A stretch of DNA of 64,000 bases from an uncultured bacterium (GTDB taxonomy: Bacteria > Cyanobacteriota > Vampirovibrionia > Gastranaerophilales > Gastranaerophilaceae): the NCBI GenBank assembly GCA_949292175.1, contig CASEYJ010000003.1:124001-188000 (forward strand). Direction: 5' to 3'. Positions 47,489 through 55,514 of the stretch are shown here, piece after piece (position 1 is the stretch's first letter; the number at the start of each line of letters is the position of its first letter). Made by a program: the position numbers and the translations under genes. A model generated the notes under the pieces. That model searched no databases. It was not told the origin of the DNA and worked only from the letters and a program-made list of their open reading frames with translations.

Positions 47489-48280
47489 TTACTGAACCTT
47501 TTCTCCTTCAGGGTTATACTTTTCAACACTGCCATCAGGCCGAGTTATTGTTACAAACCCATTTTCTTCCCCAAAAATCCGATTATCATGAAAGATCTTT
47601 GTACCATCCTTAAGGGTATATTCTCTAGAACCACCATCTCTGTATACATTAGTATTTACCAATTGTCCGTTGAAAAGTTTTGATATTGCTGCATTATACA
47701 ACTCGTAGCCATCCTTGTTACCGGCACTAATATTCGCATCAATAGTTGTCAAAGCCTTGGTCAAATCTGATCCTTTACTAATATCATAATCTGCGATCAA
47801 CTTTCCAATTTCATCAAGTTTTTGAGCTTTAGCCTTCAATTTAGCCATCTCTTCAGCTTTTTGTTCAGCTCTTGTTTTTGTATTTTTGTACACATTTTGA
47901 ATTTCTTCTGCCGTAGCCTGATAGATACCTGAATTCTTACCAATAGAAAATTCTCCATCCATAAAGAAAGCTTCTCTATCTTCTAAAGGAACCTTGTCTA
48001 AATTAGCATCCAGAAGCGTCATTAATGTTTTCAACTCTTTTTCACTTACATTTTTACTATCGCCATCCAAGTTCAAAATGGCGTCAAAATTCTTCTTACC
48101 TTCAGCATCCAATTTTTTATACGCCTTAGCAAACAGAGAACTTTTCTTTAACTCTGCAACTGAAATACTTGTTCTATCGCCCAAAAATTCTTGAGTTTTT
48201 TCTGACAATTTTTTCTGATACTCTGCATCTTTTACAGCATCACCCATTCCAACAAGTGAACCATTAATATATGTAGGCAT
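47489..48280 (-). CDS. Hypothetical protein with EF-hand-like loop
   Basis: A 263-residue acidic, lysine-rich protein without signal peptide or membrane segment. Residues ~68-90 (ILNLDGDSKNVSEKELKTL) look like one calcium-binding EF-hand-type loop (D-x-D-x-...-E). A helical charged middle (~128-160) is followed by a C-terminal part with Thr/Gly-rich strands ('YRDGGSREYTLKDGTKIFHD', 'VTITRPDGSVEKYNPEG') that resemble RHS-like or adhesin-type beta repeats. No family is recognised. GAGAGGAGG precedes the ATG, an alternating TA promoter element lies at 48305-48320, and a strong terminator follows, so it is a real, separately transcribed gene. Confidence 0.65.
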   Translation of the reverse strand: MPTYINGSLVGMGDAVKDAEYQKKLSEKTQEFLGDRTSISVAELKKSSLFAKAYKKLDAEGKKNFDAILNLDGDSKNVSEKELKTLMTLLDANLDKVPLEDREAFFMDGEFSIGKNSGIYQATAEEIQNVYKNTKTRAEQKAEEMAKLKAKAQKLDEIGKLIADYDISKGSDLTKALTTIDANISAGNKDGYELYNAAISKLFNGQLVNTNVYRDGGSREYTLKDGTKIFHDNRIFGEENGFVTITRPDGSVEKYNPEGEKVQ

Positions 48281-48320: not shown

Positions 48321-48433
48321 AATTCTTTCAAAATAATTTACAACGAACCTAAAAGAAAACACCATAAAACCCTTATGTACAAATAGTTTCTCATAGAAAG
48401 ATTCGAAATTTTACATTTGTTTACATTTTTATT

Positions 48434-54346: not shown

Positions 54347-54817
54347 TTAACCCATAAATCCATTTCTAAAGAAACTACTTCTAAACGTAAACCCGCCAGG
54401 AAAACTAGGAGCTCCAAATCCAGGTCCCCAAGTACCACCAGGCATCATCGGATTCATCATTGTATCCCACATTCCGGGACCATAACAACCACTAGTTGGT
54501 CCATAACAAGAATATGGCCCACTAAACATCATATTCATGCTATGGGTAAACAAACTTGCATTCATCGTATTATATAAAGCCTGCTGAGCATTATCTCCAG
54601 CGACACTTTTTCCAACATAACCAAGGTTACTGCCTGTACATTCTCTTAACTCAGCAGCATTTTGGGTAGCCGCAGCATTACCAAACAAGTTTATACCAGC
54701 AGTCGTAACTTTGTCACCAATAGTTTCGCCAGCCTTCCGCGGACGCATCAAGTCAAGACCAAATTGCAGTCCGTCACTTATATAACTGAGGTTTTTATTT
54801 AGGTTAGCCCAATCCAT
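54347..54817 (-). CDS. Hypothetical Gly/Met/Pro-rich protein
   Basis: A 156-residue protein. The first ~95 residues are an ordinary polar helical region; from ~96 the sequence becomes rich in Met, Gly, Pro, Ser and aromatic residues ('MNMMFSGPYSCYGPTSGCYGPGM', then 'MMNPMMPGGTWGPGFGAPSFPGGF'), with two Cys in a 'CYGP' pair. This low-complexity tail suggests a metal-binding, adhesive or phase-separating part. No signal peptide and no known family. CGGAGAG precedes the ATG and an alternating TA element is at 54841-54856, as for genes 48280 and 50528. Confidence 0.55.
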   Translation of the reverse strand: MDWANLNKNLSYISDGLQFGLDLMRPRKAGETIGDKVTTAGINLFGNAAATQNAAELRECTGSNLGYVGKSVAGDNAQQALYNTMNASLFTHSMNMMFSGPYSCYGPTSGCYGPGMWDTMMNPMMPGGTWGPGFGAPSFPGGFTFRSSFFRNGFMG

Positions 54818-54840
54818 AATTATACTCTCCGGTTACCTGT

Positions 54841-54856
54841 ATGTATATATATAAAA
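54841..54856 (-). promoter_or_regulatory. Alternating TA promoter-like element
   Basis: On the minus strand TTTTATATATATACAT, 24-40 nt before the start at 54817. See also 48305-48320 and 50488-50502. Confidence 0.4.
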
Positions 54857-54928
54857 TATTTATTGTTTAAATAATTGCCCTTTTTTGCATTTTTTGTAAA
54901 CTTATGTAAACAACTTTCCAAAAAAACT

Positions 54929-54956
54929 TAAAGTTTACAAGAAGAATTGCCGATAG
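54929..54956 (+). promoter_or_regulatory. Strong sigma-28-like (FliA/SigD) promoter of gene 54993
   Basis: TAAAGTTT (54929-54936), 12 bases, then GCCGATAG (54949-54956). Matches the sigma-28 consensus TAAAGTTT/GCCGATAA at 8 of 8 and 7 of 8 positions. The expected transcript start (~54963) gives a 30-nt leader with AAGGG before the ATG. Confidence 0.7.
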
Positions 54957-54992
54957 ATAAGACATAAGGAAATTGAACAAGGGATATAGCTA

Positions 54993-55514
54993 ATGGCAAT
55001 AAGTGTTTATGAACAATTGAATACTATGGGATTAAGCATCGATAGAGCTACTTTACAGCAAGTATCTCAGTCAATTCTTAAAAGAGCTGAGCAAAAAAAT
55101 GCTCAGTATAATGTTGATGCTGCCAGAAATTTCTTCCAACAAAGAGATTTGGGAGTTGATTTATACAGCGGAAAAGTTGATTCAGCAACAGCGAAACAAA
55201 TTGCAATGACAAACTCTGGGTTTGATGTACAACTAAACCAAAATACATTAAACTCAATTAAATATTTAAACTCAATGGCTGCACAAAACATTCAAAAAAA
55301 TATTGAAGGTAAAATGACAGTTACAGTAAACGAAATCACAATCAAAGAACAACAAGCACCTGTAACAGCTTTCAACAGCATTGTAAGCCAAGGCACCGCA
55401 AAAGATAAAAACGGATCTAATCCTTTTTATCACGGCGAACTTTTGATGAAAGACAGAAAGAAAGAAGAAACTACTGAAGACGTAAGAGCAATCACAACAA
55501 GTGTATTCGCTTAG
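54993..55514 (+). CDS. Hypothetical protein under a sigma-28-like promoter
   Basis: A 173-residue, Gln/Asn-rich helical protein with no signal peptide or membrane segment, starting MAISVYEQLNTMGLSI. The middle has 'NNSIKYLNSMAAQNIQ'-type amphipathic helices, and the C-terminal ~50 residues are charged and probably flexible ('DRKKEETTEDVRAITTS'). Overall composition is reminiscent of flagellar or secretion-substrate proteins, but no motif proves it. Its promoter is the best sigma-28 match in the window. AAGGG precedes the ATG. The stop overlaps the convergent gene's stop by 4 nt. Confidence 0.62.
   Translation: MAISVYEQLNTMGLSIDRATLQQVSQSILKRAEQKNAQYNVDAARNFFQQRDLGVDLYSGKVDSATAKQIAMTNSGFDVQLNQNTLNSIKYLNSMAAQNIQKNIEGKMTVTVNEITIKEQQAPVTAFNSIVSQGTAKDKNGSNPFYHGELLMKDRKKEETTEDVRAITTSVFA

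Follow-up and report, generated by a model that had tools for sequence, protein, structure and literature searches.

The window, that is the whole stretch of 64,000 nucleotides analysed here, covers positions 124001-188000 of one contig in a genome of 1.63 Mb, which is assembled in 17 contigs and 90% complete. Open reading frames (ORFs) were called with a simple in-house script. Gene 54993 and its divergent neighbour are separated by an intergenic region of 175 nt, which is common to both genes and contains a putative regulatory box. The features of this locus are:

54347-54817, minus strand: divergent partner gene, 156 aa, with no Pfam or NCBIfam match
54893-54910, plus strand: HLR1-type direct repeat TTTGTAAACTTATGTAAA, agreeing at 16/16 defined positions with the reverse complement of KTTACAWW-N2-KTTACAWW
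54929-54956, plus strand: predicted sigma-28 (FliA/WhiG-type) promoter, with -35 element TAAAGTTT (54929-54936), a spacer of 12 nt and -10 element GCCGATAG (54949-54956)
54963, plus strand: predicted transcription start, placed according to the -10 element, which would give a leader of 30 nt
54979-54984, plus strand: Shine-Dalgarno-like AAGGGA, 8 nt 5' of the ATG, seen by eye in homologous leaders as well
54993-55514, plus strand: target gene (ORF call), 173 aa

The protein encoded by gene 54993 matches no Pfam family above cut-off and no NCBIfam model. Its structure model is of low confidence (mean pLDDT 56, pTM 0.19), with helices only to residue 101, and the protein lacks a hydrophobic N-terminus (hydropathy score 0.49). 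Homologues occur in 118 of the 146 family genomes, leaving 28 without a match. The titles of 80 homologue loci name Candidatus Gastranaerophilales (50), Melainabacteria (3), Cyanobacteria (2) and Scatousia (1); another 21 read 'bacterium' or 'uncultured bacterium', and 3 look misnamed (Brachyspira, Clostridiaceae, Fusobacterium). Judged by these relatives, the genome of the window would belong to the Gastranaerophilales. Of 78 loci, 76 have a divergent ORF of at least 60 aa at the equivalent position; for 25 loci its similarity was assessed by eye. The preliminary description of this DNA had overlooked both the divergent gene and its conservation. Between the divergent genes, AATTGCC and TATATATA are conserved at 54818-54892; perhaps these form the promoter of the minus-strand gene.

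The full site at 54929-54956 reads TAAAGTTT-ACAAGAAGAATT-GCCGATAG, and its -10 end lies 36 nt from the ATG at 54993. The E. coli-type sigma-28 consensus is TAAAGTTT-N11-GCCGATAA. In line with the preliminary description, which had reported a near-consensus sigma-28 motif here, the window site agrees with this consensus at 15 of 16 letters, with a spacer (12 nt) that is 1 nt longer. The letters alone are little proof, because about one loose match per window is expected by chance. Scans of the own genome were similarly uninformative by themselves. With up to two mismatches, TAAAGTTT-N12-GCCGAT matched 35 times and its reversed control 22 times, and no site other than that of the window was perfect. 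The N11 version showed no excess (33 versus 31). The full consensus ending in GCCGATAA had no match in the own genome, and TAAAN{14,16}SCGATA, a pattern whose spacing cannot fit the window site, gave 37 matches versus 34 in the control. Four N12 matches had a single mismatch, one of which (L071) is inside an ORF. Together with the window site, the candidates 5' of genes in the own genome are five (L085, L069, L070 and L072 being the others).

The promoter is decided by its conservation and by the relatives. We compared upstream regions at the best 80 of 111 loci with 54993 homologues; in many cases these loci and the homologues counted in the family genomes stem from identical MAGs, and genomes of relatives do not count as independent samples. 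Scored against TAAAGTTT-N11/12-GCCGAT, at least 12 of 14 letters were matched in 65 of the 80 upstream regions (0.35 per 80 in dinucleotide shuffles), and at least 13 of 14 in 57 (0 per 80 in shuffles). The spacer of the 65 good sites was 12 nt in 53 and 11 nt in 12, only these two lengths having been scored. From the end of GCCGAT to the ATG the distance was 24-41 nt in 63 sites and 62 nt in 2. The remaining 15 promoters scored below 12/14, several of them with an altered -10 element. Upstream of four homologues (L364, L365, L371, L391) GCCGAT is replaced by GCCGTA or GTCGTA, a change that may be specific to a lineage. Across the 146 family genomes, the exact motif TAAAGTTT-N11/12-GCCGAT occurs 583 times (in 133 genomes) and its reversed pattern 10 times. 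A degenerate form of the motif gives 120 matches in 13 genomes of the genus versus 8 in the control, with 3 in the own genome and 5-14 in each congener. This pattern of conservation indicates that the promoter is almost certainly real and of the sigma-28 type. With the observed 16 letters at up to three mismatches, the window holds one occurrence versus 0.71 expected from shuffles, but a chance match is refuted by the retention of the motif across homologues and by its family-wide excess, and its probability is negligible.

Seven proteins of the own genome contain a sigma-70 region 2. Only one of these, L006, is above the cut-off of the FliA/WhiG model (TIGR02479, 235.9 bits versus a cut-off of 189.6). 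The preliminary description had held that absence of any FliA/SigD-type factor from the genome would speak against the promoter; such a factor is present. L006 is also above the cut-off of the FliA model PRK06986, and its best NCBIfam score is with the WhiG model PRK06288 (250.9 bits, under the cut-off of 343). Its residues 40-263 align with the FliA structure 6pmi. Its best PDB chains are 6pfv and 6pfj, which are labelled merely 'RNA polymerase sigma factor' and which we take to be WhiG. In the family, 140 of the 146 genomes have a FliA/WhiG match above cut-off. At E<=1e-3 all 146 have one, but so do 10 of 14 controls (3 above cut-off), as this threshold is reached by other sigma factors too. 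A FliA/WhiG sigma factor is thereby very probably what reads the promoter, as far as its letters and the protein models can tell. An alternative explanation might be that another sigma factor, such as the SigB/F/G-like L007, whose best match is a SigF model (under cut-off), reads it instead. This is very unlikely, given that GCCGAT is a -10 element of the FliA/WhiG type, that L006 is alone in clearing the cut-off, and that the same motif precedes fliD in the flagellated genome G128. No sigma-28 motif was found before fliA or rpaB (best 9/14).

The preliminary description expected a real motif to be placed non-randomly with respect to genes, and the genus genomes agree. We examined 89 of the 120 genus matches, handling own-genome matches apart. 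Sixty precede an ORF, in 40 cases at 20-60 nt from the start codon; 23 lie inside ORFs and 6 before no ORF, so the match list contains false positives. Recurrent targets are the 54993 family, a 51-aa family (MLKKI.SPSSN) and families of 50-57 aa, 69 aa and 108 aa. Other recurrent targets are large proteins in which EF-hand-like stretches were recognised by eye and some calpain-type stretches also occur, LysM proteins with a lysozyme domain, and surface-repeat proteins with signal-peptide-like starts. Defining a mean hydropathy above 1.7 over 17 residues as strongly hydrophobic, 58 of the 60 genus regulon proteins have no such stretch. The five surface-repeat proteins reach 1.34-1.72. Signal-peptide-like starts were seen by eye in five regulon proteins (L212, L224, L289, L294, L309), and these would use Sec. 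When 20 of the genus regulon proteins were compared with Pfam, only L227 (LysM and phage lysozyme) and L321 (calpain-type, Peptidase_C2) were above cut-off; calpain-type stretches in L226 and L228 stayed under it. The protein at L227:3-1469 (minus strand) combines LysM repeats with a phage-lysozyme-type domain and has no hydrophobic start.

We further examined 27 of 28 matches in G128 and 10 of 11 in G077. In G128, 25 of the 27 precede ORFs, and one of these ORFs is fliD, a classic sigma-28 target, with both FliD_N and FliD_C above cut-off. The expectation that the motif would precede fliC and other flagellar genes was thus borne out for fliD of G128 but not for its flagellin, where the best upstream site reaches only 11/16. 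Among 10 regulon proteins from G128 and G077, FliD and one HD/GAF protein were above a Pfam cut-off. Motif-driven proteins beginning with MG(L/M)AASQ(A/V)R were seen in G128 (L197, L199, L201) and G077 (L432); L197, L201 and L432 have no Pfam family above cut-off.

The HLR1-type box, which the preliminary description had also overlooked, starts 36 nt 5' of the -35 element. The consensus given for HLR1, the RpaB box, in the relevant passage of PMC13421787 is KTTACAWW-N2-KTTACAWW, and a position at about -45 to -66 is described there as activating in cyanobacteria. With transcription starting at 54963, as inferred, the window box would sit at about -53 to -70. Perfect HLR1 boxes number 2 in the window versus 0.03 expected from simulations. 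In the following counts the box position is given relative to the -35 element, and a box matches at least 13 of 16 positions unless stated otherwise. A box at -36 to -34 was found in 57 of 64 homologous promoters, these being the sites from the 80 loci that scored at least 12 and had enough upstream DNA (control 3-nt windows: mean 0.86, maximum 4). The same was found in 26 of the 60 genus promoters, which include 2 of 54993 homologues (mean 1.14, maximum 5), and in 20 of 27 promoters of G128 (mean 0.36, maximum 2). Conversely, only 1 of the 23 motif matches inside ORFs has a box in register. When the box was scored at each offset from the -35 element, the score averaged over promoters was highest at -35 or -36 for the homologous set, the genus set and G128. 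In G077 only 1 of 10 promoters has a box, yet the mean score still peaks at -35. The repeat is visible without any HLR1 model when the 27 G128 promoters are aligned on the -35 element alone. In a set of 32 promoters made non-redundant by first residues, 25 have a match of at least 12/16 at -36 to -34 and none at -60 to -58. Among the candidates of the own genome, L072 (13/16), L085 (12/16) and L069 (12/16) carry the box in register, and L070 does not. We considered and rejected the option that the box belongs to the divergent gene alone, because other regulon promoters carry it in the same register. It may serve both divergent genes.

The own genome encodes an RpaB orthologue, an OmpR-type regulator at locus L125 (NF045944 equivalog, 361.2 bits, cut-off 330). 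The putative box is probably a site of RpaB, judging from its letters and from this orthologue. Alternatively, the direct repeat might be the site of another OmpR/PhoB-type regulator, such as RpaA. Members of this family recognise direct repeats of a similar kind, and half-sites of the form TTAAG or TGTTACA are present in many relatives. The homologues of RpaA, RpaB and NblS noted in Melainabacteria, with their function left open in the passage concerned (PMC3787301), likewise supply such a candidate. That the window copy equals the published RpaB consensus (16/16), and that the own RpaB is above its equivalog cut-off, nevertheless makes another regulator distinctly less probable than RpaB.

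The second perfect box of the window lies elsewhere:

48410-48427, minus strand: second perfect HLR1 box, 5' of gene 47489-48280
47489-48280, minus strand: gene behind the second box, 263 aa, with a look-alike in the congener G001

No sigma-28 motif stands beside this box (best 9/14), and RpaB may act with another sigma factor as well. The G001 look-alike of the gene, recognised by eye, has its start 124 nt downstream of fliR and a 14/16 box upstream, which loosely links the boxes with the flagellum-type apparatus.

As stated in the preliminary description, the window contains no flagellar-type gene, at least for 14 tblastn queries including FliA (E<=1e-4). Its suggestion that the 54993 protein might be motility-related is not supported. 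The own genome (90% complete) has no Flagellin_N match in a search that was positive in 4 of 14 control genomes, and a canonical-class flagellar FliP was found in none of the 13 genus genomes. Export-gate genes are widespread. A FliP of 214-238 bits is open and above cut-off in all 54 genomes of 41 genera searched (G128, the 13 genus genomes and single representatives of 40 further genera). An extra FliP of 257-274 bits occurs in 18 of the 54, and a fragment in G023 besides; it was found in 0 of the 13 of the genus. FlhA-type matches occur in 145 of the 146 family genomes and fall into two classes. One, of 848-885 bits, is present in 57 genomes. The other, of 719-736 bits among the matches listed, ranks first in 81 genomes and is also present in at least 37 of the 57, which by hand count places this second class in at least 118 of the 146 genomes. 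Seven genomes, the own genome included (E 1.3e-44), have only weaker, partial FlhA matches, and one genome has none. The own genome encodes FliN-like, FliO, FliP, FliQ and FliR proteins in a row (L271), all above Pfam cut-offs. In G001, FliE, FliF, an unrecognised protein, FliH and FlhA are encoded in a row, the named ones above Pfam cut-offs. The unrecognised protein, at the FliG position of this cluster (L192:11611-12675, minus strand), has no Pfam match at E<=0.01. G128, which has flagellin and FliD, has both sets. No sigma-28 motif was found before the fliE cluster of G001 or the FliN-like/fliOPQR cluster of the own genome (best 9/14). FlhB and FliI are part of the 13-gene flagellar list in PMC3787301.

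Our results can be brought together as follows. The FliA/WhiG sigma factor of the genome would read a working sigma-28-type promoter, which would probably be activated by RpaB through the HLR1-type box, some 53-70 nt 5' of the predicted start. Gene 54993 would then belong to a regulon that extends across the family and consists largely of unknown proteins, the majority of them lacking a hydrophobic N-terminus. The flagellum-type export set, kept where neither flagellin nor canonical FliP was found, would export the regulon products, and the 54993 protein would be a conserved secreted or surface component that is not part of a swimming flagellum. The genomes contain the conserved promoter, the box in its register, the sigma factor, the RpaB orthologue and the export-gate genes; that the sigma factor and RpaB are used, and that RpaB activates, is what we infer from these. 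We give a probability of roughly 0.6 to an RpaB and sigma-28 regulon whose products possibly leave through a flagellum-type gate. Export of the 54993 product itself is a tentative prediction, with the odds somewhat against it; 28 of the 146 genomes have no match to 54993 while FliP is in all 54 genomes searched.

The contrasting explanation is that the promoter was retained from a flagellated ancestor, that its targets are cytosolic or Sec-exported envelope proteins, and that FliP and FlhA are remnants, type III export being unrelated. FliD, whose gene has this promoter type in G128, is a type III substrate, which argues against this. Moreover, remnants would be expected to decay, whereas FliP is open and above cut-off throughout the 41 genera and the second FlhA class is similarly widespread. 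Conversely, the 54993 protein has no known domain, five regulon proteins have signal-peptide-like starts, and export of regulon products is a hypothesis only. Earlier authors also leaned this way. Incomplete sets of flagellar genes have been described for gut members (PMC4040986, PMC5877343, PMC3787301); the passage concerned in PMC4040986 takes them as not encoding a functional flagellum, and that in PMC3787301 sees possible ongoing genome reduction in the absence of filament and ring genes from one Melainabacteria member. On balance we consider the remnant explanation unlikely, and prefer a regulon with possible export through the gate.

The known parts of this arrangement, the sigma-28 promoter, the RpaB box and the export gate, occur here in a combination of which we found no report. 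Our literature search, which covered mainly papers readable without subscription, yielded no report of a link between RpaB/HLR1 and sigma 28 in Gastranaerophilales, no paper joining Gastranaerophilales with a sigma factor, and, within the literature on sigma 28/FliA in cyanobacteria, none with HLR1. Where the function of RpaB in Melainabacteria was open, there are now concrete candidate targets in register with sigma-28 promoters. With these candidates, and with an export gate retained in genomes that yielded no filament genes, the role of RpaB and the question of genome reduction both become testable. The composite promoter is also a signature by which members of the regulon can be catalogued in genomes of uncultured gut bacteria. 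A more speculative extension, which we regard as rather improbable, is that RpaB and sigma 28 drive a regulon whose products leave the cell via a stripped-down, filament-less flagellum. This could be nearer to the original role of RpaB, with photosynthesis genes brought under its control only afterwards; the 'incomplete flagella' seen in gut members would be working export organelles rather than relics.

How does this arrangement compare with known systems? It shares with the late flagellar promoters of FliA/SigD the elements TAAAGTTT and GCCGATA, a FliA/WhiG factor, and the motif before fliD in G128. It differs in the spacer (12 instead of 11 nt), in the lack of a flagellin match, in its mostly unknown targets, and in the HLR1-type box at a fixed register upstream. 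FliA-family sigma factors without a flagellum are known from Streptomyces (WhiG), Legionella oakridgensis and Chlamydia. Our case resembles these in having such a factor without a flagellum, and the best NCBIfam score of L006, though under cut-off, is with a WhiG model; it differs from them in the conserved flagellum-type export gate and the RpaB-type boxes. The flagellar type III export apparatus is represented by FliN-like, FliO, FliP, FliQ and FliR proteins in the own genome and by FlhA, FliH, FliF and FliE in G001. In contrast to this apparatus, no flagellin was found, a second FliP class is present that is mostly shorter, and the protein in the FliG slot has no Pfam match. Lastly, RpaB is known for regulating photosynthesis genes in response to light and redox state, and the Gastranaerophilales are non-photosynthetic sisters of the Cyanobacteria. 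The NblS-RpaB/HLR1 regulon of photosynthetic Cyanobacteria has the same 18-bp box, the same activating-type upstream placement and an orthologous RpaB, whereas here the host is non-photosynthetic and the box is coupled to sigma-28 promoters.
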